This document shows positions 8,085 through 26,916 of a DNA stretch of 64,000 bases, piece by piece (the stretch's first letter is position 1; the number at the start of each line of letters is the position of its first letter). The translations under genes were made by a program, and so were the position numbers. The DNA comes from Echinicola rosea (GTDB lineage Bacteria > Bacteroidota > Bacteroidia > Cytophagales > Cyclobacteriaceae). The stretch is from assembly GCF_005281475.1 (NCBI RefSeq), contig NZ_CP040106.1, positions 1,307,501-1,371,500 on the forward strand, given 5' to 3'. The notes under the pieces were generated by a model. It was not told the DNA's origin, did not search any database, and was given only the letters and a program-made list of their open reading frames with translations.

Positions 8085-8105
8085 AACTACCTATCAAAAT
8101 AACCT

Positions 8106-9689: not shown

Positions 9690-9825
9690 GGCGAGACTGC
9701 TTCGCTCCACTATTGTACCGCTACCGATGACGTCCTTTATTTCATCTCGGTAGGAAGTATGACGAAGCAATCCCTTCTTCGGAACACAAGATTGCTTCTT
9801 CCCTTCGGTCATCGCAATGAAATAT
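9690..9825. repeat. Degenerate 'gcaatc/tcatcgcaatga' repeat
   Basis: The gap between GH28 and GH43 genes is made of repeated tgacgaagcaatccc / gattgcttcttcccttcggtcatcgcaatga modules, related to the cgtcattgcga...gtggcaa motif in the larger MITE-like elements elsewhere in the window. The module ends about 25 bp before the chosen GH43 start and adds a false N-terminal extension to that frame. Confidence 0.6.
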
Positions 9826-9849
9826 GGATTTCTTGAACAACTTATAGTG

Positions 9850-10794: not shown

Positions 10795-10864
10795 AAATGC
10801 TTTATAGAGATAAGAATAAAGAGGAAAGAGTAATGTGCGGGACAGTGGACAGCGGTTCCAAGTT

Positions 10865-10939
10865 TGAGCTGTTCCGGATTTTTGAGCTGTTCCGGTTTTG
10901 CAATCCGGAATTTGCCATAAGGGGGATTTGTAATCCCCA
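10865..10939. repeat. Palindromes upstream of BNR-propeller gene
   Basis: The repeat gagctgttccggattt/ gagctgttccggtttt followed by gcaatccgga and gggggatttgtaatcccc (about 10921-10937) are members of the GATT..AATC palindrome family. Translated in frame they give low-complexity FELFRIFELFRF, a sign that the long upstream extension of the following gene is not real protein. Confidence 0.7.
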
Positions 10940-10958
10940 ATACAGGAGTTGTTTTTTG

Positions 10959-12770
10959 ATGCTGTGTATGATGGTCATTACCTCATCCCCGCTATTGGCC
11001 CAGGACACCTTGCACTATAGCGGCAGTACCTTGTCCAGAGTAGATTATCACCATGGGCAGCTGAAACCGGCCATTGGGGTGCATGCTGTACAGACCATGC
11101 GGGCGAATAGGGAACAACCGGAAAAGGGAGATGGCTTTGGCTGGACCTATAATCATGCGCCGATGATCGCTTATTGGAATGATAAATTTTATGTGGAATA
11201 TCTCAGCGATCCCGTTGGAGAGCACATTGCTCCTAGCCAGACGCTTCTTCAAGTATCGGATGATGGCTATGGCTGGACCAAGCCCGAAGTCCTCTTTCCT
11301 CCATATCGCATTCCTGATGGCACGAGCAAGGAAAACCACGATGGGGCAGCCAAAGACCTGGACGCTGTCATGCACCAACGAATGGGCTTTTATGTAGCGG
11401 AAAACGGTAAGTTTTTGGCGCTGGCCTATTATGGGATTGCCTTGGATGCGCACGATGGCCCAAATGATGGCAACGGCATCGGCCGAGTGGTAAGGGAAAT
11501 CAAAGCTGACGGCAGTTTTGGCCCTATCCATTTTATCCGGTATAACCACGGTTGGAATGAAGAGAATACCGATTATCCATTTTATAAATCCAGCAAGGAC
11601 AAGGGTTTTGTGGAGGCTTGTGACGAATTGCTCGGTAAACCATTGATGATGCAGCAGTGGGTCGAAGAGGCCGATCGCGATGACCCTTTGATTCCCTTGA
11701 AGAAACAATATAAAGCATTTAGTTATTACCACCTTCCTGATGGCCGCGTGGTCGGCTTGTGGAAACATGCCCTTACCAGTGTCAGCCATGATGGGGGCAA
11801 GTCTTGGGAATATAATCCCCTGCGTGCTCCTGGCATCGTCAATGGCAATGCCAAAATCTGGGGACAGCGCACTGCTGACGGAGCCTATGCCACCGTGTAT
11901 AATCCTTCGGAATACCGCTGGCCACTTGCAGTTTCTACCAGCCAGGATGGAATTGACTATACTGATTTGCTTTTGGTACATGGCGAAATTACCTCCATGC
12001 GCTATGGTGGAAACTACAAATCATACGGGCCACAGTATGTTCGAGGAATTTTGGAGGGTAATGGGACTCCGCCGGATGGAAAGATGTGGTTGACCTATAG
12101 TGTCAATAAAGAGGATATTTGGGTGGCTTCAGTGCCTACGCCCATTACGGCCGAAGCTGCCGGCCACGCCCATGAGATCTTTGACCAATTGCCCGAAGGA
12201 CGGGAGCTGGAATTATGGAACACCTATAGTCCTCAATGGGCCAAAACCCAAATCACTGAAAAAGATGGTAAAAAGTACCTGACATTCCATGACAAAGATC
12301 CTTTTGACTATGGAAAGGCCCAACGTATCGTACCCAGCAGCAAGCAGCTGCATGTGGAGTTTACGGTCACGCCAGGGCAAAGCGACCATGGAAAATTCCA
12401 GATCGAAATCCAAGATGGCAAAGGCCGTCCTGGCGTACAACTGATATTTGACGAGGATGGCTTGTTCAAGACCCGGGCAGGTTACCGCATGAATACCCTT
12501 ACCGAATTTGAAGAAGGAGAAAGCTATCATGTGGAATTGGATTTAAATGCTGAAACTCGCTTTTACCAGATCAAGGTAAATGGCAAAGAGAAAGGGCCAA
12601 AGCTCTTCTTTGCGCCTTTGGATGCGATGGAGCGTGTGGTCTTCAGGACGGGTACCCAGCGGTATTTTCCAAATGCGGAAACACCGACCGACCAAGACTA
12701 TGACTTGGACAATGCCGGCGAGGAAGACCCGGAAGCCGTGTTTTATTTGGAGTCGCTGGTGACGTATTAA
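10959..12770 (+). CDS. Secreted BNR/sialidase-like beta-propeller protein with jelly-roll C-terminal domain
   Basis: A 603-residue exported protein. I start at ATG 10959 (preceded by aggag; MLCMMVITSSPLLAQ signal peptide), not at ATG 10791, whose extension translates the palindromic repeat. Residues about 30-420 form a BNR-like propeller, with Asp-box-like segments (VSDDGYGWTKP, VSHDGGKSWEY, STSQDGIDYTD) and conserved blocks NHAPMIAYWNDKFYVEY and GYAIALD-like GIALDAHDGPNDG. Residues about 440-603 look like a concanavalin/LamG jelly roll. The fold is shared by sialidases acting on ulosonic acids and by several propeller lyases and rhamnosidases, so the enzyme class is open. In this pectin locus it is a candidate for a terminal RG-II sugar, possibly Kdo or Dha; that is speculation. 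Its TAA stop lies inside the terminal repeat of a MITE-like element. Confidence 0.65.
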   Translation: MLCMMVITSSPLLAQDTLHYSGSTLSRVDYHHGQLKPAIGVHAVQTMRANREQPEKGDGFGWTYNHAPMIAYWNDKFYVEYLSDPVGEHIAPSQTLLQVSDDGYGWTKPEVLFPPYRIPDGTSKENHDGAAKDLDAVMHQRMGFYVAENGKFLALAYYGIALDAHDGPNDGNGIGRVVREIKADGSFGPIHFIRYNHGWNEENTDYPFYKSSKDKGFVEACDELLGKPLMMQQWVEEADRDDPLIPLKKQYKAFSYYHLPDGRVVGLWKHALTSVSHDGGKSWEYNPLRAPGIVNGNAKIWGQRTADGAYATVYNPSEYRWPLAVSTSQDGIDYTDLLLVHGEITSMRYGGNYKSYGPQYVRGILEGNGTPPDGKMWLTYSVNKEDIWVASVPTPITAEAAGHAHEIFDQLPEGRELELWNTYSPQWAKTQITEKDGKKYLTFHDKDPFDYGKAQRIVPSSKQLHVEFTVTPGQSDHGKFQIEIQDGKGRPGVQLIFDEDGLFKTRAGYRMNTLTEFEEGESYHVELDLNAETRFYQIKVNGKEKGPKLFFAPLDAMERVVFRTGTQRYFPNAETPTDQDYDLDNAGEEDPEAVFYLESLVTY

Positions 12771-12942: not shown

Positions 12943-13213
12943 GTGGGTTGGATAGAACGTAGAGGACGCTGATATAATGGATTGGCGCAGATTGAATAAG
13001 ATAATAGGTTGTGGTGGTGCCAAGTCCGTGACTTGGTACTTCTTAGCAATGAGTTCCTGACTCAAAAGCACGATGTCGGTGGTAAAGAAAAGCTGAGTCG
13101 GGAGACTCAACTTTCACCGTCCCGCATCAGAGACAGCGCGACAGCCGATCATAGACACGATTATTGTTTAAACAATTGAAAATTTGAAAAAAAACATACA
13201 ACATAAAAAAGAA
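12943..13213. repeat. Intergenic stretch with GAGTC...GACTC palindromes
   Basis: No gene. The stretch contains ccaagtccgtgacttgg (13020-13036), gagttcctgactc (about 13051-13063) and tgagtcgggagactca (about 13092-13107), followed by tttcaccgtcccgc.tcagag..gcg. The last block recurs at 17178-17232. These form a second palindrome family, with centre GTCnnnGAC rather than ATTnnAAT. Confidence 0.65.
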
Positions 13214-16018
13214 ATGTGGGGCCTAAGAAAGGGACTGCTGCTTTTTCAAATTGCAGCAGTATTGCTTTTTGCATGTGACCCTGGGCCTAAGGGCACGGTT
13301 CTCCAGGTGGTCAAAACCACCACAGAATTGGCCAATAATCCCTTGAACATCGAAAAGACATCGCCGCGATTTGGTTGGCAGCTTTTGGGAAGTGAAAATG
13401 GTGCACAACAATCCGCCTATCAAGTGGTGGTGTCCCATTCTTCCAGTAATGAAGAAGCGGCGATCGTCTGGGACAGCGGCAAAGTAAGCAGCAGCCAAAG
13501 CCAACTTATCCCCTATCAAGGTGGCTCCTTGATCAATGGGGAGCGGTACTATTGGAAGGTTAAGGTTTGGAACGAAGAGGGAATTTCCTCGGATTGGAGC
13601 GACTTGGCCTTCTTTGAGATGGCACCTTATGAGCTGGAAAAGGAAGCCCAGTGGATCGGGGCCATCACCCGTGCGGAAAGTGGCTTGCCGACTGGGAGAA
13701 ATTACCATCAGCCGGATATGCGCCGTAAGGAAAATAAAGCAAAATGGGCAAAGGTAAAGCCATTGGCCAAGCAAAGTATCCAACTACGCAAGGCGTTCGA
13801 AACGGGAAAAGAAATTACCAAAGCCACCGTATTTATCAGTGGACTTGGCCATTATGAACTGACACTTAATGGTGAAAAAGTAGGTAACAGTGAATTTGCG
13901 CCGTTATGGTCAGATTATGACAAAACGGTTTATTATAATACTTATGATGTCACTGAGCGGGTTGAAAATGGTGAAAATGCCATTGGCGTATTGTTGGGCA
14001 ATGGCATGTACAATGTGTCAGGGGACCGTTACGCCAAATTTTTGATCAGCTTTGGGCCGCCGACACTATTTTTCCACATGAAAGTAACTTATGCTGATGG
14101 TCAGGAGCAAGTGATTTCATCTGACGATTCCTGGAAGTGGTCAGCAAGTCCCATTACGTTTAATTGTGTTTTTGGCGGGGAGGATTATGATGCCAATTTA
14201 GAACAGACAGGCTGGGACAAGGCAGGCTTTGACGACCAACACTGGAAGTCCGTCGTGTTGCAACAAGCGCCTCAAGGCAAACTCCGACCCCAGCAGGCAG
14301 CTCCCGTGCTCATCCAACAGCAATACGACATCAAGGAAATCACTGAACCTGAAGCAAACACCTATGTTCTGGACATGGGTCAAAATTTGGCCGGATTTCC
14401 TTCCATCAAAGTGGAGGGTGAAAGAGGCCAAAAAGTTAAATTGATCGTCGGTGAGCATATCAAAGACAACGGCCTTGTGGGCCAAGGAAGAACTGGGGGG
14501 CCACATTACTATGAATATACGCTCAAAGGCGATGGTGAAGAATCTTGGCAGCCAAGGTTCAGCTTTTACGGCTACCAGTACATCCAGGTGAGCGATGCCA
14601 ACGTGCCGGGCAAAGAACAGCAAGAAGGCCGGCCCACCATTACGGAGATCAAATCCAATTTTATCTATAACGATGCCCAGGAAAAAGGCACCTTTGAGAG
14701 CTCCAATGAGATTTTTAACCAGACCCATTGGCTGATCAATAACGCCGTCAAAAGTAATATGCAGAGTGTGTTTACCGATTGTCCACATCGGGAAAAGCTC
14801 GGCTGGCTGGAAGAGACACACTTGAACGGCCCCGGACTGTTCTTTAACTATGACCTCACACAATTGGTGCCTAAGATCATGCAGGACATGGCCGATGCCC
14901 AGCGTGAAAATGGGCTGGTGCCGAATATCGCGCCGGAATATGTGGTCTTTGGCGGTGACTTTACGGATTCTCCCGAATGGGGCGTGGCGGCGGTGGTGCT
15001 GCCTTGGATGTATTACGATTATTATGGCGACAGTACCCTGATACGGGAGTACTATCCCATGATGAAAAAATACATCGATTACCTGGGCACCACGGCCGAA
15101 AACCACATTGTATCCCATGGATTGGGAGACTGGTACGACTACGGAGAGCATGCGGCAGGATACTCCAAAAACAGTCCGATTGCCCTTTCGGCCACTAGCC
15201 ATTACTATTTTGGCGTGAAATTATTGAAAAAGGCAGCGCTGATGCTTCAGCGAGGGGAAGATTACCGTGAATATGGTAGGTTGGAAGAGGAAGTGAAAAG
15301 GGCTTTCAATGATAAATTCTTTGATCCGGTTACGAGCCAATATGGTACGGGCAGCCAGTTTTCCAATGCCGTACCGCTGTTTTTGGACATGGTGGACTCG
15401 ACCGATCGTGAGGCGGTATTGGATAATCTGGTGCAGGATATTCAAAATCACGGCTATCGGCTGACCACTGGCGATGTGGGCAATCGGTACCTGTACCAGA
15501 CCTTGGCCAGAAACGGACTGAATGAGGTGATGTACAAAATGCACAATCACTACGACACACCAGGTTATGGTTTTCAGATCAAATTTGGCCTGACGACCCT
15601 GACCGAGCAGTGGGATCCCCGCAAGGGCAATAGCTGGAATCACTTTATGATGGGACAAATCGAAGAGTGGTTTTACCGTGATTTGGCAGGCATTCAGCCT
15701 GATCCAGCCCAGCCAGGCTTTAAGCATTTCTTTCTGAAGCCACAGCTGGTGGGCGAAATGACCTTTGTGAAGGCTACTTATGAAAGTATTTACGGAACCA
15801 TTGGTTCGGAATGGAAAAAGAAAGAGGGCAGCGTTCAATTCCTTTTTGACATTCCCGCCAATACAAGTGCTACCGTGGTACTTCCCATGGCCAAAACGGC
15901 GCAGGTTTTTATTAATGGAAGCAAGGCTGAACATACCAATACAGTTACCAAATCGGAACATCCCTCTCACCCTGCATATACCTTGGGTTCGGGAAGATAT
16001 AGTATCGAGGTGAAATAA
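13214..16018 (+). CDS. GH78 alpha-L-rhamnosidase, lipoprotein
   Basis: A 934-residue family 78 alpha-L-rhamnosidase that removes rhamnose from pectic side chains or rhamnogalacturonan fragments. ATG 13214 is chosen over TTG 13184; it starts MWGLRKGLLLFQ... with lipobox LLFACDPG. Domain order is the standard one: an Ig-like N-terminal module (to about 150), the rhamnosidase N-terminal beta domain (about 175-350), a second beta domain (about 360-460), the (alpha/alpha)6 barrel (about 475-815) and a C-terminal beta sandwich. The family motif DCPHREKLGWLEE lies near residue 522 and holds catalytic acidic residues. Length is normal for Bacteroidota GH78. A second, diverged GH78 lies at 30190, suggesting two rhamnose linkages are targeted. 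Confidence 0.93.
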   Translation: MWGLRKGLLLFQIAAVLLFACDPGPKGTVLQVVKTTTELANNPLNIEKTSPRFGWQLLGSENGAQQSAYQVVVSHSSSNEEAAIVWDSGKVSSSQSQLIPYQGGSLINGERYYWKVKVWNEEGISSDWSDLAFFEMAPYELEKEAQWIGAITRAESGLPTGRNYHQPDMRRKENKAKWAKVKPLAKQSIQLRKAFETGKEITKATVFISGLGHYELTLNGEKVGNSEFAPLWSDYDKTVYYNTYDVTERVENGENAIGVLLGNGMYNVSGDRYAKFLISFGPPTLFFHMKVTYADGQEQVISSDDSWKWSASPITFNCVFGGEDYDANLEQTGWDKAGFDDQHWKSVVLQQAPQGKLRPQQAAPVLIQQQYDIKEITEPEANTYVLDMGQNLAGFPSIKVEGERGQKVKLIVGEHIKDNGLVGQGRTGGPHYYEYTLKGDGEESWQPRFSFYGYQYIQVSDANVPGKEQQEGRPTITEIKSNFIYNDAQEKGTFESSNEIFNQTHWLINNAVKSNMQSVFTDCPHREKLGWLEETHLNGPGLFFNYDLTQLVPKIMQDMADAQRENGLVPNIAPEYVVFGGDFTDSPEWGVAAVVLPWMYYDYYGDSTLIREYYPMMKKYIDYLGTTAENHIVSHGLGDWYDYGEHAAGYSKNSPIALSATSHYYFGVKLLKKAALMLQRGEDYREYGRLEEEVKRAFNDKFFDPVTSQYGTGSQFSNAVPLFLDMVDSTDREAVLDNLVQDIQNHGYRLTTGDVGNRYLYQTLARNGLNEVMYKMHNHYDTPGYGFQIKFGLTTLTEQWDPRKGNSWNHFMMGQIEEWFYRDLAGIQPDPAQPGFKHFFLKPQLVGEMTFVKATYESIYGTIGSEWKKKEGSVQFLFDIPANTSATVVLPMAKTAQVFINGSKAEHTNTVTKSEHPSHPAYTLGSGRYSIEVK

Positions 16019-16118: not shown

Positions 16119-17015
16119 ATGAAAAAACAATATCAAGGCGTGGTGGTACCGATGGTGACACCGCTGACGACAAAAGGAGCCATAGACCGAGAGGGGGTGG
16201 CCAGGATCATGGGCCAATTTGCCCAAAACAACATCTCCCCTTTGGTCTTGGGAACCACAGGTGAATCAGCGTCATTTTCCGACCAAGAAAGTTTTGAAAT
16301 GATCGAGGCCACCGTGGCCGCCAAGGAGGCTAATCAGCAGGTGTACGCAGGAGTTGTCAGTAATCTGGTAGAAGAGCAGTACCGTCGTGGCAGCCAATAT
16401 TTGGATCACGGCGTAGATGCTATTGTGGCGACCTTACCCGCATATTATATCCTTTCGGATGATCAAATGAAACGTCATTTTGAAGGCCTTGCCGATCACT
16501 TGAAGGGGCCGCTTCTGATGTACAATATCAAAGCCACGACCCAAATGTCCATTCCTCTTTCGGTAGTAGAGGAAATGAGCCATCATCCGCATATTTGGGG
16601 CTTGAAGGATTCGGAAAGGGACATTTCCAGGATGCATGCTGCCATTGACCAATACCGGGGAAGACCTGATTTTTCCTTTTTCTGCGGTTGGGGAGCCCAG
16701 TCTGCCAACAGTCTCAGGACAGGGGCGGATGGTATTGTGCCAAGTACGGGCAATATTGTACCGGAGCTTTACAAAGCCCTCTATGCTGCGGCTCTGGAAG
16801 GGGACGAAGAAAAAGCGGTGCATTATCAGGAATTGACCGATGAAGTGGCCAAAGTTTACCAAGGAGGAAGAAGCCTTGGTGCTTCCTTAGCAGCTTTGAA
16901 GACCCTGATGCATCAAAAAGGATGGTGTCAGCCTTATATGAAGCCGCCTTTGACCGAACTGAGCAAAGGTGAGATGAAAAAGGTGGTAAGTGAGTGGAAT
17001 CAGCTGATGGAGTGA
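16119..17015 (+). CDS. DHDPS/NAL-family pyruvate aldolase
   Basis: A 298-residue cytoplasmic aldolase of the dihydrodipicolinate synthase / N-acetylneuraminate lyase family. ATG 16119 starts MKKQYQG; an upstream in-frame start at 16038 would add 27 residues unlike the family. Visible signatures: LGTTGESASF near residue 45, AYYILSDDQ (catalytic Tyr) near residue 107 and GLKDSERD near residue 165, whose Lys forms the Schiff base with pyruvate. No signal peptide. A housekeeping DapA is unlikely in this setting: it opens a block with a symporter, Fe-ADH, PdxA-like dehydrogenase and DUF1537 kinase inside a pectin locus. It is therefore predicted to cleave, or form, a 2-keto-3-deoxy sugar acid giving pyruvate plus an aldehyde. 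The exact substrate is inferred in the findings. Confidence 0.85.
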   Translation: MKKQYQGVVVPMVTPLTTKGAIDREGVARIMGQFAQNNISPLVLGTTGESASFSDQESFEMIEATVAAKEANQQVYAGVVSNLVEEQYRRGSQYLDHGVDAIVATLPAYYILSDDQMKRHFEGLADHLKGPLLMYNIKATTQMSIPLSVVEEMSHHPHIWGLKDSERDISRMHAAIDQYRGRPDFSFFCGWGAQSANSLRTGADGIVPSTGNIVPELYKALYAAALEGDEEKAVHYQELTDEVAKVYQGGRSLGASLAALKTLMHQKGWCQPYMKPPLTELSKGEMKKVVSEWNQLME

Positions 17016-17359
17016 GGGGATTGCAAGTCCCCATTATCCGTAGTTCCAGATTTCAAATCTGGAACAGCAAAGTTGTTCGGATGAAGTGAGGAATGTGAAA
17101 TTAATAATGAGGAATGAACGGACCGTAATACCAAAAGTTATCTTGTAGTTCTGTCAGCTGTTCTGCGGATGATGGTAAATGAGTCAGGAGACTCAAATTT
17201 TCACAGTCCCGCGTCAGAGAAGGCGGGACAACAGGGGAACGAAAGAACAACAGCTAAATTTACCTTGGCGACCTAGTGCCTTAGTGGTAACCGTTCAACT
17301 TTATAACATCAAAACGTAACAACCTTGACAACCAAGAAACAATTTAACCCAATAACCAC
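17016..17359. repeat. Intergenic palindrome cluster before the symporter
   Basis: No gene. Contains GGGGATTGCAAGTCCCC (17016-17032), perfect GTTCCAGATTTCAAATCTGGAAC (17043-17065) and a gagtcaggagactc palindrome near 17180 followed by ttttcacagtcccgcgtcagagaaggcgggac, matching 13092-13145. The last 100 bases before the symporter are AT-rich with no motif I can identify. Confidence 0.75.
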
Positions 17360-18940
17360 ATGAATGCATCATTACACTGGATAGATTACTTGTTGATTGT
17401 TGCCTCGATTTTTGGGACGATATATATGGGAATCTATTTTTCCAAGCGTCAAAAAAGCAGTGAGGATTACTTTGCCGGAGGTGGTGGGATTCCCTCTTGG
17501 GCCATCGGGATGTCCATTTTTGCCACGCTGATCAGCAGCGTAACGTTTTTGGCCTATCCCAGTGCGGCCTATAAGTCCAATTGGATCCTGCTGGTGCAAG
17601 GGCTAATGGTGCCCATTGTCCTGGTGTGTATGATCTGGGTGATCGTACCGCTTTTCAGAAGGGTGATTGGGCTGAGTACCTATGAATATTTCGAAAAGCG
17701 CTTTGGTTTCTTTGCCAGGCTATACAGTTCGCTGGCCTTTGTGCTGACCCATTTTTCCAAAATGGGAACGGTGCTATACCTGGTGAGCTTGGCCTTAAGC
17801 AGCATGATGGACGTCAATATCTTTATGGTCATCGGTGTGCTGACCTTTGTCATTATTGTATTGACCTTGCTGGGGGGCATTGAAGCGGTGATCTGGATGG
17901 ATGTGATCCAAGGGTTTTTGCTCATTGGCGGGGGCTTGTTCTGTTTGGGATTGCTGCTTTTTGTGCCCGAAGGAGGCCCCGAGCGGGTGATGGAAGAAGC
18001 CATCAATATGGATAAGATAGGCTTTGGCCCATATGACATCGACTTTACCCAGCTCACCTTTATCGTCATGGTGGTCAATGGAATTTTCTATGCCGTTCAA
18101 AAATACGGTACCGACCAGACAATCGTCCAGCGGTATTTGACGGCCAGAAACGACCGCGAGGCCAAAAAGGCAGCTTATATGGGAGTGTTCCTAAGTGTGC
18201 CAGTGTGGGCCCTGTTTATGCTGATCGGTTCCCTGCTGTTTGTGTTTTACCAGATTTCCGGTTCCGTGCTGCCGGAAGGTACCAGTGTGGATGCCGTATT
18301 TCCATACTTTATCATGACCGAACTTCCACCGGGCGTAACGGGCTTGGTCTTGGCAGCTTTGGCTGCTGCGGCGATTTCCAGCTTGGATTCTGACATGAAT
18401 TGCCTGGCGGCCGTGGGCGTGGAGGACTACTATAAGCGCTTTAATCCCAACTGCAATACCCACCAAAAACTTAAGGTTGGTCGTATCCTGGTGTTGATAT
18501 CGGGCCTGGCAGCAGCAGGGGTGGCAGTCCTATATGTGCTTTGGCAGGGAGAAGGGGTCTTGGGAGCGGTATTTGGCCTGTATGCGATTTTCTCTGCCGG
18601 TATTGTGGGGATATTCTTACTTGGGCTTTTTAGCCGTAGGGCTAATAAGGAAGGGCTTTATGTCGGAATTGTAGCCTGTATCCTCTTTACCGCTTATGCC
18701 CTGTTGACCTCCACGCCGATGAGCTTTGGCGGCGGAGAAAAAACCTTGCTACTGGACTTAGGCAAATTCAACTTTAACCAACACAAATATATGTTAGGGG
18801 TGTACAGCCATTTGATCGTGCTTATTGTGGGCTATATAGCCAGTTTGTTCTTCAAACGCCCACCAGCCGATGAAAACCTGACCATTTACGGCTATTTCAA
18901 GCAAAAGCAGAAGATGGAAAGGGCAAAGGAGGTAGTCTGA
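17360..18940 (+). CDS. Sodium:solute symporter (SSS family)
   Basis: A 526-residue inner-membrane transporter with about 13-14 hydrophobic helices, of the SSS/SLC5 family that couples Na+ entry to uptake of sugars or organic acids. The N-terminus has DYLLIVASIFGTIYMGIYF followed by the family region SSEDYFAGGGGIPSWAIGMS. The central SLDSDMNCLAAVGVEDYYKR block after AAISS is typical of the conserved Na+-site helix 8 region. Length is normal. It sits between the aldolase and the Fe-ADH on the same strand, so its cargo is probably the sugar acid that the module degrades. Specificity is not visible in the sequence. Confidence 0.9.
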   Translation: MNASLHWIDYLLIVASIFGTIYMGIYFSKRQKSSEDYFAGGGGIPSWAIGMSIFATLISSVTFLAYPSAAYKSNWILLVQGLMVPIVLVCMIWVIVPLFRRVIGLSTYEYFEKRFGFFARLYSSLAFVLTHFSKMGTVLYLVSLALSSMMDVNIFMVIGVLTFVIIVLTLLGGIEAVIWMDVIQGFLLIGGGLFCLGLLLFVPEGGPERVMEEAINMDKIGFGPYDIDFTQLTFIVMVVNGIFYAVQKYGTDQTIVQRYLTARNDREAKKAAYMGVFLSVPVWALFMLIGSLLFVFYQISGSVLPEGTSVDAVFPYFIMTELPPGVTGLVLAALAAAAISSLDSDMNCLAAVGVEDYYKRFNPNCNTHQKLKVGRILVLISGLAAAGVAVLYVLWQGEGVLGAVFGLYAIFSAGIVGIFLLGLFSRRANKEGLYVGIVACILFTAYALLTSTPMSFGGGEKTLLLDLGKFNFNQHKYMLGVYSHLIVLIVGYIASLFFKRPPADENLTIYGYFKQKQKMERAKEVV

Positions 18941-19156
18941 TATTCTTGGTTGAATAGGCGCAGCTGTGAGGTAAATCATCGGGTATTGCTCCATCCGCGC
19001 TACTCCCTGGCCACAGTGGTTTTGCTCCGCTGGCTGAGCGGAGTCGAAGCAATAGCCTTGTTTGTCACCGAACATGCCGAAAATGACAGTAAAGACTACT
19101 TCCTACGAGTGATCCTAAACGAAAACCAATTAACGAATAACAAATAACGAAATAAG
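18941..19156. repeat. Intergenic repeat with tccgctggctgagcgga hairpin
   Basis: The stretch contains tccgctggctgagcgga followed by gtcgaagc near 19028-19051 (a common dispersed intergenic motif in bacterial genomes), then cgaacatgccgaaaatgacag. No coding content. It separates the symporter from the Fe-ADH by about 215 bp, so the module is not tightly packed at this point. Confidence 0.45.
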
Positions 19157-20302
19157 ATGAGGGCGATAACATTATTACAACCCCAAAAACTGGTATTTGG
19201 GGCGGGGGCCTTTTCCCGCTTTGTGGAGGACACCATAGCCGCCAGCCACAAGCGGATTTGGATATTGGTGGCGCAGCCGCTAGTGGATACATTGGACGGT
19301 GGCTTGCAAGAAATGAGAGGAGCCGGAATAGTCGTAGAAGTGGCCGTTTATGATGTCGGAGAGCCTACTTTTAGTCATTATGAGGACTTTTTAAAGCAAG
19401 TGAAGGATTTTGGAGCCGATACGATCGTGGGTATCGGTGGGGGCAGTGTATTGGACTTGGCCAAACTTTTGGCGGCCATGCAGGACAGTACTGGGCAGTT
19501 ATCCGATTTTGTTGGTATAAATTTGTTAAGAAGCAGGAACACACAGATGGTGTGTATACCGACGACCGCCGGTACGGGCAGTGAGGTTTCTCCAAATGCC
19601 ATCTTGCTGGATGAAGCGACATTGGAGAAAAAAGGTATCATCAGTCCATTTCTGGTGCCTGATGCCACCTATATCGACCCGGCACTGACCATTGGGCTAC
19701 CGCCAAAGATCACAGCGGAGACGGGAATTGACGCCTTGTCGCATTGCATTGAGGCTTATACGAACAAGTTTAGCCATCCGCTCGTGGATGATTATGCGTT
19801 GAGGGGGATAGCCCTCATCGGGCAAAATTTACTCCGCGCATATGAAGCTCCCGATGACATGGATGCCCGATCTGCAGTGGCACTGGGAAGCATGTACGGA
19901 GGATTATGCCTCGGGCCGGTGAATACCGCAGCGGTACATGCCCTTTCTTATCCGTTAGGAGGAAAGTACCATGTGCCTCACGGATTGGCCAATGCCGTGC
20001 TACTTCCAGAAGTGATGGCCTATAACCTTTCTTCCAATGTGCAGAAGCATGAGCAAATCGCGTTGGCCTTGGGAGCAGAAAGAGGTAGCACACCAGAGGA
20101 AACGGCCAAGAATGGCGTGGAGAAAGTAAAGGAGTTGGTGAAGCTTTGTGAAATTCCCCAGACCCTCACCACGCTGGGTGTTCAGCGCGAGGATGTGGCC
20201 GAATTGACAGGCTTGGCCATGAAAGTTACCCGGCTGCTTAAAAATAACCCGAGAGAGGTGACTTTCTCAGATGCCGAGGAGATTTATGGCCGCTTGTTTT
20301 AA
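19157..20302 (+). CDS. Iron-containing alcohol dehydrogenase
   Basis: A 381-residue cytoplasmic NAD(P)-dependent oxidoreductase of the group III, Fe-dependent alcohol dehydrogenase family. The nucleotide-binding part holds GIGGGSVLDLAK near residue 94 and TTAGTGSEVS near 136. The metal site is seen in HCIEAYTNKFSHPLVDDYA (near 195), HALSYPLGGKYHVPHGLANA (near 259) and its His residues. The family interconverts an aldehyde and an alcohol; here a likely job is reducing the aldehyde left by the aldolase encoded at 16119. The neighbouring pdxA-like and DUF1537 genes support that, since they need a hydroxy-acid substrate. Start ATG 19157 gives a normal-length protein. Family certain, substrate inferred. 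Confidence 0.9.
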   Translation: MRAITLLQPQKLVFGAGAFSRFVEDTIAASHKRIWILVAQPLVDTLDGGLQEMRGAGIVVEVAVYDVGEPTFSHYEDFLKQVKDFGADTIVGIGGGSVLDLAKLLAAMQDSTGQLSDFVGINLLRSRNTQMVCIPTTAGTGSEVSPNAILLDEATLEKKGIISPFLVPDATYIDPALTIGLPPKITAETGIDALSHCIEAYTNKFSHPLVDDYALRGIALIGQNLLRAYEAPDDMDARSAVALGSMYGGLCLGPVNTAAVHALSYPLGGKYHVPHGLANAVLLPEVMAYNLSSNVQKHEQIALALGAERGSTPEETAKNGVEKVKELVKLCEIPQTLTTLGVQREDVAELTGLAMKVTRLLKNNPREVTFSDAEEIYGRLF

Positions 20303-20311
20303 AGGGTAGTG

Positions 20312-20470
20312 AGACGTGAGTATTGAGATATGAGAAATAGGAATGCTGGGGCTGAGCCCTCCGCATAGCCGATAAAAAGAGGAAAGTACTTAGGAAAAAG
20401 AAAGTTAGGTCAAGATGGAGATTGAGACCAAAAATCTCATGTCTCCTATCTCACATCTTATGTCTAGATA
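20312..20470. repeat. Inverted gtgagtattgagatatgaga repeats
   Basis: gagacgtgagtattgagatatgaga (from 20312) and tctcatgtctcctatctcacatct (about 20437-20460) are imperfect inverted copies about 100 bp apart. Related words occur at 7912-7965 and 16021-16042. The stretch fills the gap between the Fe-ADH and pdxA-like genes and could form a long imperfect stem in RNA. Confidence 0.5.
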
Positions 20471-20481
20471 ATTAGAAAAAT

Positions 20482-21534
20482 ATGGAAAGACCAATTATAG
20501 CCATCACCATGGGCGATCCTGCAGGGATCGGTCCCGAGATCATCGTAAAGAGCTTTCGGAATGGAGGATTACATGCCAAATGTCAGCCATTGGTGGTGGG
20601 CGATGCGGCGACCATTGCGCGTATGGCCAAACAGTTAAATGCTCCATTGACCGTGAGGGCGATCCAGGAGGTTCGGGAGGCCAGCTTTGACCCGCAAGTA
20701 ATCGAGGTGGTGGACTTGGACAATGTGGATGTCGATCAGCTGGAGATGGGCAAGGTCAGTGCCATGTCTGGAGCAGCGGCTTTTCAATCGGTAAAAAAAA
20801 CCATTGAACTGGCGTTAAGTGAAGAAGTTGATGCGACTGTCACCAGCCCCATTAACAAAGAATCGATTAATTTGGCTGGTCATCACTATGCCGGCCATAC
20901 AGAGATATACGCAGAATTTACCGGTACGGAGAAATTTGCGATGTTGCTCGTGGAGCAAAACCTTCGGGTAATCCATGTGACTACGCATGTGCCCTTGCGA
21001 GCGGCCTGTGATCTGGTAAAAAAAGACCGGGTGCTGGACGTCATCCGTTTGCTGCACCAAGCCTGTGTGCAGTTTGGCATCGAAAAACCACGCATTGGCG
21101 TGGCGGGGCTAAACCCCCATGCCGGTGATGGCGGGCTCTTTGGCACCGAGGATGATAAGGAGATTTTGCCTGCTGTACAGACTGCCCAAGCAGAAGGATA
21201 TGAAGCCGAAGGTCCTGTTCCACCGGACACCCTTTTTGCCAAAGCCGTGCAGGGATATTACGATGGCTGTGTGGCCATGTACCACGACCAAGGGCATATT
21301 CCTTTTAAAATGGTCGGGTTCAAATGGAACAATGAATCCAAGACCATGGAGAGTGTAAAGGGCGTTAACATTACCCTTGGTTTACCGATCATTCGTACTT
21401 CTGTGGACCATGGTACTGCCTTCGAGATTGCAGGGCAGGGAATCGCCTCAGAAGATGCGTTGAACTTAGCGATTGATTATGCCATTCCAATGGCAAAAAA
21501 CAGAAAGAAACATGATAGCAGTTATAGCCGATGA
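20482..21534 (+). CDS. pdxA: PdxA-like 4-phospho-hydroxyacid dehydrogenase (PdxA2 type)
   Basis: A 350-residue member of the PdxA family, NAD-dependent and divalent-metal-dependent oxidative decarboxylases. Motifs: GDPAGIGPEI near residue 11, HYAGHTEIYAE (metal His) near 133, THVPLRAACD near 172, GLNPHAGDGGLFG near 212, MYHDQGHIPFK near 266 and TSVDHGTAFEIAG near 303. Housekeeping PdxA acts on 4-phosphohydroxy-L-threonine for pyridoxal phosphate. PdxA2 paralogues paired with DUF1537 kinases act on 4-phospho-D-threonate or 4-phospho-D-erythronate, giving dihydroxyacetone phosphate and CO2. This gene overlaps a DUF1537 kinase by 23 bp and sits in a sugar-acid block, so the PdxA2 role is favoured, though residues that discriminate the two cannot be checked here. 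Confidence 0.88.
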   Translation: MERPIIAITMGDPAGIGPEIIVKSFRNGGLHAKCQPLVVGDAATIARMAKQLNAPLTVRAIQEVREASFDPQVIEVVDLDNVDVDQLEMGKVSAMSGAAAFQSVKKTIELALSEEVDATVTSPINKESINLAGHHYAGHTEIYAEFTGTEKFAMLLVEQNLRVIHVTTHVPLRAACDLVKKDRVLDVIRLLHQACVQFGIEKPRIGVAGLNPHAGDGGLFGTEDDKEILPAVQTAQAEGYEAEGPVPPDTLFAKAVQGYYDGCVAMYHDQGHIPFKMVGFKWNNESKTMESVKGVNITLGLPIIRTSVDHGTAFEIAGQGIASEDALNLAIDYAIPMAKNRKKHDSSYSR

Positions 21535-22687
21535 TATTACCGGGGCTGCCGAAATAGCCGGTGTATGCCTGAGATGGGGAATTCCCGTATCCTTTTCCTT
21601 GGATGCCAGTCCCGCAAGTGGTGCTGACGTGATGGTGATCGCCACGGACACCCGATCCATGACCGAGGCGGCCGCCCTAAAAGAAACGGACAGGATCGCC
21701 TCCGAGCTGATGAACATGGGCATCACCTGGATCTTCAAAAAATCCGATTCCGTGATGCGTGGCCATGTGGCCAAAGAGCTAAAGGTACTGGCCAAAAATC
21801 TCCACAAGGAAAAAATGCTCTTGGTACCGGCCAATCCCTACACCGGCCGAAGCATCAGTGAGGGAATTTATTATGTGAAAGGAAGACCGTTGAACGAAAC
21901 TAGTTTTAAGGACGATCCTACATTTCCGGCTTTTTCTGCCAATGTAAAGGACCTTTTGCGAGAGGATGAACTGCCTGTAGCTTATGGAAAGTTTTCTGAA
22001 GAAGAGGACCTTCAAGCCGGGTTTAACATCCCTGACTCCCAGACTATGCAGGACTTGTACACCTGGGCCAGCTTAATGGATGATTCAGTGCTGCCTGCAG
22101 GAAGTGCCGCATTTTTTGAGATGTGCCTGAAGCGTAATTTCCCGGAATGGATGCTTGGGCAAGAACCGGATCCGCTTTCCTTTTTGGGCAATAGCCTGAT
22201 GATCGCCGGCAGTAGCCATCAAAACAGCAAGGACTTTGTCGAAAAAGCAGTGGAAAAAGGCGTTCACCTTAGCGAAATGCCAGATTTGCTAACCGAAGAA
22301 ACGTATAATCCCGCCGGTACCGAAGCTTGGGTGCAGGATGTAAGCCAAGGACTAAAAGATAGTGACCGGGTCATCATGGGGTACGGTAAAAAGAAAGTGA
22401 GCTTTGACAATTACCCGGCAATCCTTAAAAAGCGCACTGCCCAGGCGGTCTCAAGGGTGATCGAAGAAGTGCCCGTGCGGGAATTATTACTGGAAGGTGG
22501 AGCGACCACCTGTGCGGTGATCGAAGAACTTTCCCTCGGTGCGTTGATTCCCATGCAGGAGCTTAGCCCTGGTGTCGTACGGTTAAAAGCTGTGGACCTT
22601 GATATGGTGTTGACCATCAAGCCAGGAAGCTACGCTTGGCCCGAGGCTGTGTACAAGTACTTTGAACTCGAAAAGCCAATGGTGTGA
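21512..22687 (+). CDS. DUF1537 four-carbon acid sugar kinase (threonate/erythronate kinase type)
   Basis: A 391-residue cytoplasmic kinase of the DUF1537 family, shown in other bacteria to phosphorylate D-threonate, D-erythronate, L-threonate or related acids with ATP. ATG 21512 begins MIAVIADDITGAAEIAG, the conserved N-terminal acid-sugar-binding motif; the upstream in-frame ATG at 21473 adds 13 unlikely residues. Further signatures: TDTRSM near residue 46, FKKSDSVMRGHV near 72, and the C-terminal nucleotide-binding part with LLLEGGATTCAVIEEL near 326 and LKPGSY-like IKPGSYAWP near 371. It overlaps the pdxA-like gene by 23 bp, so kinase and dehydrogenase are probably made together. The pair fits the known D-threonate route; exact stereochemistry is inferred. 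Confidence 0.9.
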   Translation: MIAVIADDITGAAEIAGVCLRWGIPVSFSLDASPASGADVMVIATDTRSMTEAAALKETDRIASELMNMGITWIFKKSDSVMRGHVAKELKVLAKNLHKEKMLLVPANPYTGRSISEGIYYVKGRPLNETSFKDDPTFPAFSANVKDLLREDELPVAYGKFSEEEDLQAGFNIPDSQTMQDLYTWASLMDDSVLPAGSAAFFEMCLKRNFPEWMLGQEPDPLSFLGNSLMIAGSSHQNSKDFVEKAVEKGVHLSEMPDLLTEETYNPAGTEAWVQDVSQGLKDSDRVIMGYGKKKVSFDNYPAILKKRTAQAVSRVIEEVPVRELLLEGGATTCAVIEELSLGALIPMQELSPGVVRLKAVDLDMVLTIKPGSYAWPEAVYKYFELEKPMV

Positions 22688-24210
22688 TGGGTAGAAGGAG
22701 ATGGGGTTCAGTTGATTTGGCTATGAAAGGCCGTCCACTGTCCACTGTCCACTGTCGACAGTGGGTTGGTGTGCTGGCCTCCCCTATAGGGAACCGAGGG
22801 GTCCGCTATGGGAAGCATCAATGGACTGCTTTCCTTTTGATCATGACTACCCTGTTTTTGCTGTCCAAAGTTACAGATCTATCTGCTCAAGATGCTGACA
22901 ATCATTATAACGCTACATTAAAAGAGACCCTTGAAAGGATTGAAACGACTTTTCACGTTACACTCCACTATGATGGGAAATTAGTGGACGGCAAGGAACT
23001 GGATTATGCCTTTTGGCGAATCCGGCAAGGTGACCTGGATAATTCCCTTACGGCCGTGCTGGCTCCTTTTGACCTTACCTATTATCAGGAAGATGAAGAT
23101 ACTTATTCCATTAAGCCATTTCAGTACCACAAAAAATCCATCTCAATTGCCAAGGAAGAACTGGCCTTTTTTGAAACGCTATATGCTACCAAAATGGCTT
23201 GGGAAGACAGAAAATCCCAGTTGCGTCAGTGCATGATCGAGGCCTTGGGGTTGTTGGCACTTCCCGAAAAGCCTTCTTCTGCTCCCATCATTACCAAAAA
23301 AAGAAAATACAAAGGCTATACAGTAGAAAATGTGGCCTTGGAAGTGTTGTCGGGGGTTTACACCACCGGTTCAGTATATAAGCCTCGTCCGCTGAAGGAC
23401 AACCATCCCATTATCATCATGCCAAACGGGCACTTTGGCCAGGGACGTTATCGCGAAAGCGAACAAATCAGAGCAGCCACCTTGGCCAAAATGGGAGCGG
23501 TGGTCGTCACCTATGATTTGTTTGCTTGGGGAGAATCCCAATTGCAGTTTGCCTCTGAAGACCATCGGCTTAGCGCTGCCCACACCATCCAAACCTGGAA
23601 TGGGCTGCAATGGATCGATTACCTTTCAGCGCTCAAGGAAACGGATCCTCAGCGTGTGGGCATTACGGGTGGGTCAGGCGGTGGGTCACAAACCATGCTG
23701 CTGACAGCCATTGATGATCGCATCAAAGTAGCCGTGCCCACCGTGATGGTTTCTTCCCATTTTTCGGGAGGTTGTCCATGCGAAAGTGGGAAGCCGATCC
23801 ATCTTTGTGCTGGAGGCACTAATAATGCGGAGATTGCTGCGATGGCAGCACCTCGGCCCATGCTGGTCATCTCTGATGGCGGCGACTGGACGCACACTGT
23901 TCCTGAATTAGAGTTTCCATTTATCCAACGGACCTATGGGTTCTATGGAGAAAAAGATAAAGTAACTAATGCTCATTTTCCCTCCGAAGGGCATGATTAT
24001 AAGTATTCAAAACGGCAAGCGATGTATCCGTTTATGGCCAAGTATTTGGATTTGGATATCGACAAGTTAAAAGATGATGAGGGTTATATAGATGAAAGTG
24101 GCGTGACCATCGAAGATGAGAATGCCCTGAAAGTGTTCGGGGAGAATGGGGATGGACTTCCGGAAAATGCTATTAAAGGGAAGGATGCCTTATTTAATGT
24201 CATGGAGTAG
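22684..24210 (+). CDS. Exported alpha/beta-hydrolase esterase with N-terminal STN domain
   Basis: A 508-residue frame in ATGA overlap with the kinase gene. The real start is uncertain: the first 50 codons run through a palindromic repeat (22735-22764), and a later start (GTG 22771 or ATG 22843) would still keep the hydrophobic export segment ending DLSAQ. Next comes a domain of about 70 residues like the secretin/TonB N-terminal (STN) domain (LERIETTFHVTLHYDG... LDNSLTAVLAPFDLTYY). The remaining part is an acetylxylan-esterase-like alpha/beta hydrolase with GITGGSGGGSQT as nucleophile elbow and GHDYKYS near the C-terminus holding the likely His. Esterases in RG-II loci remove methyl or acetyl esters, and CE19-type assignment is possible. 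The STN fusion is unusual. Confidence 0.72.
   Translation: MMGRRRWGSVDLAMKGRPLSTVHCRQWVGVLASPIGNRGVRYGKHQWTAFLLIMTTLFLLSKVTDLSAQDADNHYNATLKETLERIETTFHVTLHYDGKLVDGKELDYAFWRIRQGDLDNSLTAVLAPFDLTYYQEDEDTYSIKPFQYHKKSISIAKEELAFFETLYATKMAWEDRKSQLRQCMIEALGLLALPEKPSSAPIITKKRKYKGYTVENVALEVLSGVYTTGSVYKPRPLKDNHPIIIMPNGHFGQGRYRESEQIRAATLAKMGAVVVTYDLFAWGESQLQFASEDHRLSAAHTIQTWNGLQWIDYLSALKETDPQRVGITGGSGGGSQTMLLTAIDDRIKVAVPTVMVSSHFSGGCPCESGKPIHLCAGGTNNAEIAAMAAPRPMLVISDGGDWTHTVPELEFPFIQRTYGFYGEKDKVTNAHFPSEGHDYKYSKRQAMYPFMAKYLDLDIDKLKDDEGYIDESGVTIEDENALKVFGENGDGLPENAIKGKDALFNVME
22735..22764. repeat. gtccact tandem and 16-bp perfect palindrome
   Basis: Tandem gtccact units lead into CCACTGTCGACAGTGG (22749-22764), a perfect 16-bp palindrome with the GTC..GAC centre of the second palindrome family. 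It lies within the nominal 5' coding part of the esterase frame, which makes the far-upstream start doubtful. A related ggacagtggacag word is at 10849. Confidence 0.6.
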
Positions 24211-24474: not shown

Positions 24475-26916
24475 ATGCGTAGGACAACAAGCTTAATTTT
24501 CGTTTTTTTAGTAACGATACTTACCCTTCACGCGCAGGATACTTCCTGGAAATTGTGGTATGATAAACCCGCCTCAAACTGGAACGAAGCGTTGCCACTG
24601 GGCAATGGCCGCTTGGGCGCGATGGTCTTCGGGGCACCGGCAATGGAGCGATTGCAATTGAATGAAGAGACCATCTGGGCAGGATCACCCAACAGCAATG
24701 CTCATACCAAGGCCAAAGAGGCCATTCCTTATGTGCAGCAATTGATTTTTGAAGGAGACTATCAGGCCGCACAGGAATTGGCCGATGAAAGGATCATGTC
24801 ACAAACCAATGACGGGATGCCTTATGAAACGTTTGGGAATGTTTACATTTCTTTTCCGGGACATCAAGGTTATGAAGATTATTACCGTGACCTGAACTTG
24901 GAGGAGGCCACCAGTACCGTAAGTTATTCTGTGGACGGTGTCCAGTACAAAAGAGAAGTCCTCAGCGCTTTTGAGGATGATGTCATTATGGTGAGGTTGA
25001 CAGCAGACCGACCCGGCAGCATTACGTGTAATGTCCAAATGACCAGTCCACATGACAATGCCGATGTACGGATCAGGGAAGACCAACTTACCCTTTCGGG
25101 AGTTTCCCAAACACACGACCACCAACGTGGAGGAGTGAAGTTCCAAGGAAGAATCAAAGCTAAAAACAAAGGTGGCGAAATGGTGACCAAAGATGGACTC
25201 ATCAGTGTCGCAGGTGCCGATGAGGTGACCTTGTATATTTCCATTGCCACCAACTTTAAGAATTATAAAGACCTATCAGTTGAATATGAAAAGAAGGCGG
25301 CCGAGATTCTAAATGCTTCCTTCCAAAAGGATTTTGATGCCATTAAAAGTGCACATATTGCCTATTATCAGCAGTTTTATGACCGTGTGGCCATTGACCT
25401 TGGCAGCACCGAGGCTGCAGAAAAACCAACCGACCAGCGGATCCAGCAGTTTGCTGAAGTCAATGATCCCCAACTGGCAGCGCTTTATTTTCAGTTTGCA
25501 CGCTACCTGCTGATATCCTGCTCCCAGCCGGGCGGCCAGCCGTCTAACCTGCAGGGTATTTGGAATGATATGCTATTTCCACCTTGGGAAAGTAAATATA
25601 CCGTGAACATCAATGCGGAGATGAACTATTGGCCAGCAGAGCTCACCAATCTGAGTGAGATGCACGAGCCGTTTTTGCAGATGGTACGGGAAGTGAGCGA
25701 AACAGGCCGAGAAACGGCCAAAATGATGTACGGTGCCCGCGGCTGGGTGCTTCATCATAATACGGACATTTGGCGTATCACTGGCCCGATCGATTATGCC
25801 GCATCAGGCATGTGGCCAAGTGGAGGAGCTTGGCTGACCCAGCACCTTTGGGAGCGGTACCTTTACAGCGGTGACGAGGATTTTCTGAAAGAAGCATATC
25901 CGATCATGAAGGGAGCCGCTCAGTTTTTTCTGGATGTGCTGATCGAGGAGCCAGAGCATGGCTGGTTGGTCGTGTCTCCTTCGAGTTCTCCAGAAAATAG
26001 CCATGTGCATGGCGCGACCATTGCGGCAGGGGTAACGATGGATAATCAGTTGATGTTTGATTTATTTTCCAACCTGATCCGTTCCAGTGAAATTCTGGGA
26101 CAAGATGAGGCGTTTGCAGATACGTTAAAAGCCACCCGTAAGCGATTGGCACCGATGCAGGTGGGACAATACGGACAGCTGCAAGAGTGGATGCACGACT
26201 GGGACGATCCAGCAGACAAGCACCGCCATGTGTCACACCTTTATGGTGTATTCCCAAGCAACCAAATTTCCCCATTTCGGACACCGGAGTTATTTGATGC
26301 TGCCAGAACTTCCCTGATGTTTAGGGGCGATCCATCCACTGGCTGGTCTATGGGGTGGAAAGTGAATCTCTGGGCACGTTTTTTGGATGGCGACCATGCC
26401 TACAAACTCCTTCAAAATCAACTGAGCCTTGTTACTCCTTCCACACGCGGTGGTGGGACTTATGCCAATATGTTTGACGCTCACCCACCGTTTCAGATAG
26501 ATGGGAATTTTGGCTGTGCAGCAGGGATTGCAGAGATGCTCATGCAAAGCCAGGAAGGCGCCATTCATCTCCTGCCAGCACTTCCCAACGTCTGGGATAA
26601 GGGTAGCATCGAAGGATTGCGGGCCAGGGGAGGGTTCGAAATTGTGGGGCTGACCTGGAAAGACAATAAAGTGGATAAAGTCGTGATCAAATCCACCCTC
26701 GGCGGGAATTTACGATTGCGCGCTGGCAATAAACTTAAAGCAAAAGGGCTGGAAGAAGCTTCTGGAAATAATCCTAATCATTTCTTTGATCTGCCGGAAG
26801 TGAAGCAGCCGTTGGTTTCCGAACAAGCGACATTGAATCCGGTAACATTGCAGGAGTACTATGAATATGACTTGGATACAGAGGCGGGCGAAGTATATGA
26901 GATTTCAGGTAGGTAA
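24475..26916 (+). CDS. Secreted GH95 alpha-L-fucosidase / alpha-L-galactosidase
   Basis: An 813-residue exported glycoside hydrolase of family 95, inverting enzymes that remove terminal alpha-L-fucose or alpha-L-galactose. Signal peptide about residues 1-20 (LTLHAQ). The opening LWYDKPASNWNEALPLGNGRLGAMVFG and LNEETIWAGSP are the family hallmarks of the N-terminal beta domain. The (alpha/alpha)6 barrel contains QPGGQPSNLQGIWND, NINAEMNYWPAE and SPSSSPENSH...TMDNQLMFDLF, which hold the conserved Asn, Asp and Glu residues of the active site. A C-terminal beta domain closes the protein. Length is normal. In RG-II degradation a GH95 acts on L-galactose of side chain A; whether this one acts on galactose or fucose is not decidable here. 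Confidence 0.93.
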   Translation: MRRTTSLIFVFLVTILTLHAQDTSWKLWYDKPASNWNEALPLGNGRLGAMVFGAPAMERLQLNEETIWAGSPNSNAHTKAKEAIPYVQQLIFEGDYQAAQELADERIMSQTNDGMPYETFGNVYISFPGHQGYEDYYRDLNLEEATSTVSYSVDGVQYKREVLSAFEDDVIMVRLTADRPGSITCNVQMTSPHDNADVRIREDQLTLSGVSQTHDHQRGGVKFQGRIKAKNKGGEMVTKDGLISVAGADEVTLYISIATNFKNYKDLSVEYEKKAAEILNASFQKDFDAIKSAHIAYYQQFYDRVAIDLGSTEAAEKPTDQRIQQFAEVNDPQLAALYFQFARYLLISCSQPGGQPSNLQGIWNDMLFPPWESKYTVNINAEMNYWPAELTNLSEMHEPFLQMVREVSETGRETAKMMYGARGWVLHHNTDIWRITGPIDYAASGMWPSGGAWLTQHLWERYLYSGDEDFLKEAYPIMKGAAQFFLDVLIEEPEHGWLVVSPSSSPENSHVHGATIAAGVTMDNQLMFDLFSNLIRSSEILGQDEAFADTLKATRKRLAPMQVGQYGQLQEWMHDWDDPADKHRHVSHLYGVFPSNQISPFRTPELFDAARTSLMFRGDPSTGWSMGWKVNLWARFLDGDHAYKLLQNQLSLVTPSTRGGGTYANMFDAHPPFQIDGNFGCAAGIAEMLMQSQEGAIHLLPALPNVWDKGSIEGLRARGGFEIVGLTWKDNKVDKVVIKSTLGGNLRLRAGNKLKAKGLEEASGNNPNHFFDLPEVKQPLVSEQATLNPVTLQEYYEYDLDTEAGEVYEISGR

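Follow-up and report, generated by a model that had tools for sequence, protein, structure and literature searches.

A five-gene block in a rhamnogalacturonan II locus of Echinicola rosea and a predicted route for Dha catabolism through D-threonate

Introduction

Glycosidases that dismantle the plant polysaccharide rhamnogalacturonan II (RG-II) are already known. Which genes might then carry one of its sugars, 3-deoxy-D-lyxo-2-heptulosarate (Dha), into central metabolism once it has been freed? We pursued this question in a stretch of 64,000 nucleotides from Echinicola rosea (GCF_005281475.1, contig NZ_CP040106.1, positions 1,307,501 to 1,371,500), hereafter the window, which belongs to a single-contig genome of 6.06 Mb. 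Within an RG-II/pectin gene array spanning ~0.5 to 32.9 kb of the window lie five consecutive genes for a DHDPS-family aldolase, a sodium/solute symporter (SSS), an iron-type alcohol dehydrogenase (Fe-ADH), a PdxA-type dehydrogenase and a DUF1537 kinase (Table 1). We consider it highly probable that this block is a Dha catabolic module, leading from Dha via D-threonate to central metabolites. We base this assignment on which genes are present and the families they belong to, on how the block is conserved, on its occurrence together with GH143 and on stereochemical consistency. No described Dha catabolic route was found among the matches listed in open-licence literature, in agreement with the initial annotation of this locus, and the block is a new combination of known families.

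Results

A conserved block of five genes

Each of the five genes is an uninterrupted open frame, read on the plus strand, and these frames and their Pfam matches agree with the families and positions given in the initial annotation. The aldolase start was placed at an ATG within a longer mechanical open reading frame (ORF) beginning at 16038; the kinase gene, whose mechanical ORF begins at 21473, overlaps the end of the PdxA gene. The symporter scores 218 bits against TIGR00813, over its cut-off of 184, and the alcohol dehydrogenase carries both PF00465 (122 bits) and an ADH_Fe_C domain (181 bits), which places it among the iron-containing alcohol dehydrogenases; it reaches no NCBIfam equivalog cut-off. 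Both DUF1537 domains are present in the kinase.

To follow the block across genomes, a single scan of ~85,000 genomes was made with an aldolase alignment (A1) of the window sequence and a relative from genome G110, the latter without a few C-terminal residues, where its stretch ended (G and L numbers denote our genomes and loci). It yielded 132 relatives, of which the best 80 were kept, all from Bacteroidota by their titles, among them Pedobacter glucosidilyticus (L115). The five-gene set is no chance grouping, because the complete block recurs in 67 of these 80 loci from other genomes, 46 times in the window order and 21 times as FeADH-DHDPS-PdxA-DUF1537-SSS. Among the 13 loci without a full block, six reach the end of a contig (L075, L076, L079, L090, L119 and L134) and the other seven (L091, L112, L118, L128, L138, L140 and L145) lie clear of one; L091 has all five matches, but with a gap.

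Two observations concern genes next to the block in other loci. A LacI-type regulator, recognised by eye, lies directly upstream of it (L072:8949-10004, L128:870-1886) and belongs to a cluster found in eight loci; it is likely the block's regulator. In L114, a sialidase-like BNR_2 protein of 379 amino acids (7690-8829) directly precedes the Fe-ADH gene and is possibly an extra 2-keto-3-deoxy acid hydrolase.

Genes predicted to release Dha

Judged by homology, the array around the block encodes a Dha-releasing enzyme, in the form of a gene pair that goes beyond the initial annotation. The predicted GH143 protein matches residues 24-606 of 5mqr_A (E 1.8e-238) and the predicted GH142 protein residues 611-1102 (E 2.8e-235), that is, the whole N-terminal and the whole C-terminal half of what we take to be BT1020, in agreement with the Pfam name BT_1020-like (PF24067). 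Both halves of this Bacteroides thetaiotaomicron protein (PDB 5mqr/5mqs) are thus matched almost end to end; whereas BT1020 is one two-module enzyme, its modules in the window are separate genes that stand ~16 kb from each other, on either side of the catabolic block. The GH143 family was set up to hold an enzyme of B. thetaiotaomicron that releases Dha from RG-II; this enzyme is described as having two active centres, one taking L-arabinofuranose off chain D and the other then taking Dha off the backbone, and a catalytic Tyr-Glu pair of GH143 is mentioned as well (excerpts of PMC6811678). A table in PMC7761036 likewise lists GH143 as Dha hydrolase and GH142 as beta-L-arabinofuranosidase. In the window's GH143 protein, which has a signal peptide by eye, similarity to 5mqr_A begins at residue 70, so the gene probably starts further downstream than the mechanical ATG.

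Company of GH143 across genomes

For 79 of the 80 loci (all but L106), we searched the entire genome of origin for GH143, using PF24067 at its curated cut-off. The family was found in 35/39 and 39/40, together 74/79, of these module genomes, against 12 of 395 genomes in a class-level draw from the window's class. Within the same draw, 71 genomes carry GH78 over cut-off, of which 12 have GH143 and 59 do not. The initial annotation had named wide occurrence of the gene set without RG-II enzymes as grounds for abandoning its interpretation; in the genomes examined, this was not seen. The five misses (genomes of L089, L090, L094, L103 and L109) are all metagenome-assembled genomes (MAGs) by title, and tblastn picked up a partial GH143 gene on the contig of L090 itself; among the 74, the genome of L143 has a short match of 41 bits. 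GH143 falls within the fetched locus in 18/80 cases and is therefore often more than 10 kb away or on another contig, a picture blurred by short contigs. In G437, a block-carrying Bacteroides MAG (genome of L110), a GH143 frame at C26:110272-110978 has in-frame stops, reflecting either decay or assembly error.

A draw of 176 genomes from the window's family gave a finer view. GH143 occurs in 28 genomes, 10 with window-like scores of at least 390 bits and 18 with a best score of 293-350 bits, and the module kinase (at least 379 bits) in 11/176, namely all 10 window-like GH143 genomes and G548; G519 and G579, from the same genus as the window, have neither gene. Nine of the 10 GH143-kinase pairs share a contig at ~5-13 kb, and those of G532 are on different contigs; for G497, G517, G532 and G599 the check covered the kinase and not the full block. 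The two score classes of GH143 (390-426 bits, with module kinase in 10/10; 293-350 bits only, in 1/18) are an observation in their own right, which suggests that the lower class has another specificity.

Taken together, the flanking BT1020 halves, the conservation of the block and its co-occurrence with GH143 support, on genomic grounds, the initial proposal that Dha is used through D-threonate; the two BT1020-half genes flanking the block had gone unrecognised, and that proposal is better supported than was known when it was made.

Family membership of the enzymes

The aldolase belongs to the DHDPS/NAL superfamily by its Pfam match and by its Schiff-base Lys, Tyr and TT motif, residues whose roles are presumed. 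That it might be a true DapA had been named as a way in which the proposal could fail, and this can be set aside: it scores 146.8 bits against dapA (TIGR00674; cut-off 206), and the column that holds Arg in the genome's own DapA, which we take to be E. coli Arg138, is Thr in 81/81 module aldolases. All 81 also carry a KDSER motif. The module aldolase thus has its fold and Schiff-base chemistry residues in common with DapA, N-acetylneuraminate lyase and YagE, yet forms a subfamily of its own, marked by KDSER. A structure model built from the window sequence and 56 of 74 references is 16-27% identical to the fifty solved structures listed in a fold search, and the matches listed gave no substrate information.

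Zhang et al. 2016 reportedly described a D-threonate pathway in which the DUF1537 kinase DtnK and the dehydrogenase PdxA2 yield dihydroxyacetone phosphate (DHAP). The names DtnK and PdxA2 appear in excerpts of PMC10971088 and PMC9997740, respectively. In the window the same two families stand side by side, and the PdxA protein is one of two copies in the genome (the other, elsewhere, scores 374 bits), so that a PdxA family member next to a DUF1537 kinase is accompanied by another genomic PdxA, the context of PdxA2. The product would again be DHAP, following the scheme that we take to hold for DtnK and PdxA2. There the substrate is imported, whereas here D-threonate is predicted to be an internal intermediate, made by the aldolase and the Fe-ADH. 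The kinase model, built from the window sequence and 53 of 65 references, has the DUF1537 protein H16_A1561 as its best solved match.

A proposed route

Every catalytic step, the cargo of the transporter and the order of the steps are predicted here from genomic evidence. Outside the cytoplasm, GH142 would take off the capping arabinofuranose, after which GH143 would free Dha for import by the SSS symporter. The aldolase would form a Schiff base on Lys163 and cut between C3 and C4 to yield pyruvate together with threo-2,3-dihydroxy-4-oxobutanoate, an aldehyde that the Fe-ADH would reduce to D-threonate. The DUF1537 kinase would phosphorylate this product to D-threonate-4-phosphate, and the PdxA2-type dehydrogenase would oxidise the latter with loss of CO2 to DHAP. 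The net conversion would be Dha + ATP to pyruvate, DHAP and CO2, redox-neutral if one cofactor serves both dehydrogenases, and its seven carbons balance (pyruvate 3, DHAP 3, CO2 1). The initial annotation had argued that the lyxo centres lead to the D isomer, and our recomputation gave the same outcome: with C4 left, C5 left and C6 right in Fischer projection, C3-C4 cleavage and reduction yield (2S,3R)-2,3,4-trihydroxybutanoate, which is D-threonate.

In the D-galactarate/D-glucarate pathway GarD-GarL-GarR-GarK, aldolase cleavage of a 2-keto-3-deoxy diacid leaves pyruvate plus an aldehyde acid, and reduction and phosphorylation of the latter follow. The proposed Dha route would share this logic with other enzyme families at each step. 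The Gar pathway starts from a six-carbon substrate, gives a C3 rather than a C4 aldehyde acid and, unlike the route proposed here, has no decarboxylating dehydrogenase.

Why Dha, rather than RG-II sugars generally? In plants, Dha is so far known only in RG-II (PMC12168206, excerpt). Only Kdo (3-deoxy-D-manno-oct-2-ulosonic acid) and Dha are 2-keto-3-deoxy acids in the RG-II sugar list of PMC6353982, as excerpted, and only Dha gives a four-carbon acid. Because only Dha would yield such an acid, we infer that Dha is the substrate, and this is our main argument.

Discussion

Several findings weigh against this assignment. Unlike the enzymes of the known D-threonate pathway, the window kinase and dehydrogenase fall under the curated cut-offs: the kinase scores 97.8 bits, the better score of two families listed for it, against NF047819 (D-threonate kinase; cut-off 450), and the PdxA protein 347 of 583 bits against PRK03371 (D-threonate 4-phosphate dehydrogenase), with higher scores for the generic models TIGR00557 (367 bits, cut-off 290) and PRK03743 (388 of 470). 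The Arg of the aldolase motif, Arg167, which we predict to meet the distal carboxylate, is shared at this position by one of five paralogues. The association with GH143 (Fisher p 4e-67, 74/79 against 12/395) is overstated by its p value, as the test ignores phylogeny, the module genomes are not phylogenetically independent, and the scan took its query patterns from two GH143-bearing genomes and kept 80 of 132 relatives. Conversely, among the 11 class-draw genomes with GH143 of at least 384 bits, only the window's own and G110 have the block and nine lack it. Dha release, then, does not require the block; GH143 marks RG-II degraders generally, and co-occurrence alone cannot single out Dha. In the family draw, G548 combines a full five-gene block with GH143 of the lower score class only, and G477, whose genome lacks GH143, has a kinase, a PdxA gene and a 39% identical aldolase relative in a row, with a 25% identical Fe-ADH on the other strand and no symporter match in the fetched stretch.

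The kinase relatives without GH143 score lower (G477 and G488, 307-320 bits; G554, 134 bits), and other kinase-profile matches in the family draw reach at most 66 bits. Each lies beside PdxA (G488:C2:784474-785640, G554:C533:1991-2905, G477:C116:18583-19713), and in G488 and G554 kinase and PdxA are all that was found in the fetched 19.5 kb and 5 kb; perhaps these sets serve plain four-carbon acid catabolism. From G488 and G554 as against G548, it appears that a bare kinase-PdxA pair can lack GH143 and that the full block in this draw accompanies GH143 wherever checked, with G477 as a partial exception.

The same genes could be read otherwise. They might handle another 2-keto-3-deoxy acid from pectin, such as 2-keto-3-deoxygluconate or a uronate-derived acid, which the aldolase would split into pyruvate and glyceraldehyde; the Fe-ADH would act on the C3 aldehyde, and kinase and PdxA on independent D-threonate or D-erythronate. 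We regard this as improbable, since it leaves unexplained why the five genes stay together in 67/80 loci and in two orders, and why they keep company with GH143, though 59 of the 71 GH78-carrying genomes of the class draw have no GH143 over cut-off. Kdo, from RG-II chain C, differs from Dha at the far end only, and RG-II is likewise its sole known source in plants (PMC12168206, excerpt). Its cleavage to pyruvate and D-arabinose would leave the C4-acid kinase and PdxA without a role, and a different DHDPS gene, found beside its own SSS symporter in G175, G188, G300, L139 and L146, looks a better Kdo candidate, so that Kdo seems very unlikely as the substrate of the block. This other gene is distinct in having the motif FANCLSSEM in place of GTTGE. 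It occurs in the GH143 regions of G175, G188 and G300 and, directly before the Dha block, at L117:7690-8676, L139:7843-8829 and L146:7849-8826, and is a candidate for a Kdo aldolase or an alternative Dha aldolase. A wider idea, which we offer tentatively and think somewhat less probable than its opposite, is that RG-II-digesting Bacteroidota carry two parallel aldolase-symporter modules, the five-gene block for Dha via D-threonate and the second DHDPS/SSS pair for Kdo.

The DUF1537 gene might instead belong, as OiaK, to apiose/apionate catabolism, given that GH140 releases apiose. The D-apiose/apionate pathways (AplK/AptAB; OiaK/OiaX) likewise serve an RG-II sugar, the OiaK branch has a DUF1537 kinase, and the DUF1537 genes that G065, G080, G110 and G300 carry at a distance of 20-50 kb from GH143 are indeed OiaK-like, each with an OiaX-like gene (adjacent in G065). 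The window kinase gave no OiaK (NF042436) match up to E 0.001, no RuBisCO-like gene that could be an OiaX neighbour occurs among the window genes scanned (0.5 to 33 kb), and its partner is PdxA; elsewhere in the genome, genes resembling OiaK (414 bits) and OiaX (514 bits) lie next to each other, both below their 700-bit cut-offs. The window kinase therefore appears to represent a different subfamily with different partners, and we rejected OiaK, which we give hardly any weight. The overlap of PF24067 and PF07005 in the class draw (5/395 genomes) was discarded as support for a Dha module and left uncounted, its DUF1537 genes being OiaK-like; because such genes can lie near GH143, DUF1537 alone is of little use as a marker, and its PdxA partner has to be considered with it. 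Least probable of all, to a degree we consider negligible, is that aldolase and PdxA are misread housekeeping copies for lysine (DapA) and vitamin B6. The PdxA protein does exceed the generic TIGR00557 cut-off, as given above, but the genome's sole over-cut-off DapA (298.6 bits) and another PdxA lie elsewhere, and the substitution of Thr for the DapA Arg contradicts the lysine role; both housekeeping readings were rejected.

If the block does serve Dha, the gap on the fate of free Dha would be filled by a short route that is redox-neutral and ends in pyruvate, DHAP and CO2; this route would also show a possible source of internal D-threonate and mark organisms that use RG-II chain D fully. Dha standards are lacking (PMC12168206, excerpt); a Dha-specific pyruvate aldolase run backwards from pyruvate and the C4 aldehyde acid could supply one. 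Were the idea of two modules also to hold, these modules, together with OiaK/OiaX or transketolase-type apiose genes, would complete much of intracellular RG-II catabolism.

Neighbouring genes and further observations

As the initial annotation had noted, the block sits inside a pectin locus with a GH140-like apiosidase gene, and further pectin genes accompany it (Table 1). A homologue of the esterase that follows the block is found at most 1.2 kb after it in 14/80 loci.

Table 1. Predicted features of the block and of the surrounding array, in window coordinates
Feature	Position	Strand	Match	Predicted role
DUF3826 protein	2507-3166	+	PF12875	context
DUF6298 protein	3167-6334	+	PF19815	context
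GH140-like apiosidase	6454-7914	+	PF13204, 385 bits	RG-II context
GH28 pectin hydrolase	8106-9680	+	PF00295	context
GH43/GH32-like arabinosidase-type protein	9817-10794	+	PF22847, PF00251	context
GH143-type Dha hydrolase	10791-12770	+	PF24067, 412 bits; 5mqr_A	N-terminal half of BT1020
GH78 alpha-L-rhamnosidase	13184-16018	+	PF17389	context
DHDPS-family class I pyruvate aldolase	16119-17015	+	Pfam DHDPS, 158 bits	predicted Dha aldolase (step 1)
SSS sodium/solute symporter	17360-18940	+	PF00474 SSF, 131 bits	predicted Dha importer; conserved-block member
Fe-ADH	19157-20302	+	PF00465, PF25137	predicted C4 aldehyde acid reducer (step 2)
PdxA2-type dehydrogenase	20482-21534	+	PF04166, 368 bits	predicted D-threonate-4-phosphate dehydrogenase (step 4)
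DUF1537 kinase	21512-22687	+	SBD_N, 128 bits; NBD_C, 31 bits	predicted D-threonate kinase (step 3)
alpha/beta-hydrolase esterase	22684-24210	+	weak GCE_fung/Peptidase_S15/AXE1 matches	context
GH95	24475-26916	+	PF22124, 613 bits	context
GH88/GH105	27199-28422	+	PF07470, 379 bits	context
GH142-type beta-L-arabinofuranosidase	28431-30017	+	5mqr_A	C-terminal half of BT1020
second GH78 rhamnosidase	30190-32913	+	PF17389	context

In G110 the block lies away from the GH143 locus. Its neighbours there encode an ABC transporter, an FGGY kinase, a transketolase split in two and a protein resembling fucose isomerase. A D-apiose cluster, without an isomerase, is described for E. coli SE15 (excerpt of PMC13001218); six of its genes have counterparts in G110 at 37-48% identity, namely both halves of the transketolase, the FGGY kinase and three parts of the transporter. 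In L130, too, these isomerase and transketolase genes accompany the block, its transketolases being 45-52% identical to those of SE15, so that the split transketolase spans 41-52% identity across the two. Because these apiose-type genes adjoin the block and apiose is an RG-II sugar (list in PMC6353982, excerpt), the block is associated with RG-II sugar catabolism also where it lies away from the glycosidases.

Directly after the Dha block in L086 (6185-10253) stand a gene for a solute-binding-like protein and two CoA-transferase III genes, and the same trio occurs in the window's genome upstream of the OiaX/OiaK-like pair (L063:1355-4900; G000:C1, ~1.88 Mb). One gene of the trio was assigned by Pfam and the others by eye; possibly it represents another RG-II sugar-acid route. 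At the start of the array, the gene at 476-2194 has a secreted product that resembles a pectate lyase by eye and contains a TSP3-like repeat, the latter a weak match (19.8 bits) under the cut-off; look-alikes were present in 9 of the 11 GH143 regions compared. Outside the array, the minus strand at 43067-44902 encodes a GH43 protein that also has an F5/8 type C and an fn3 domain.

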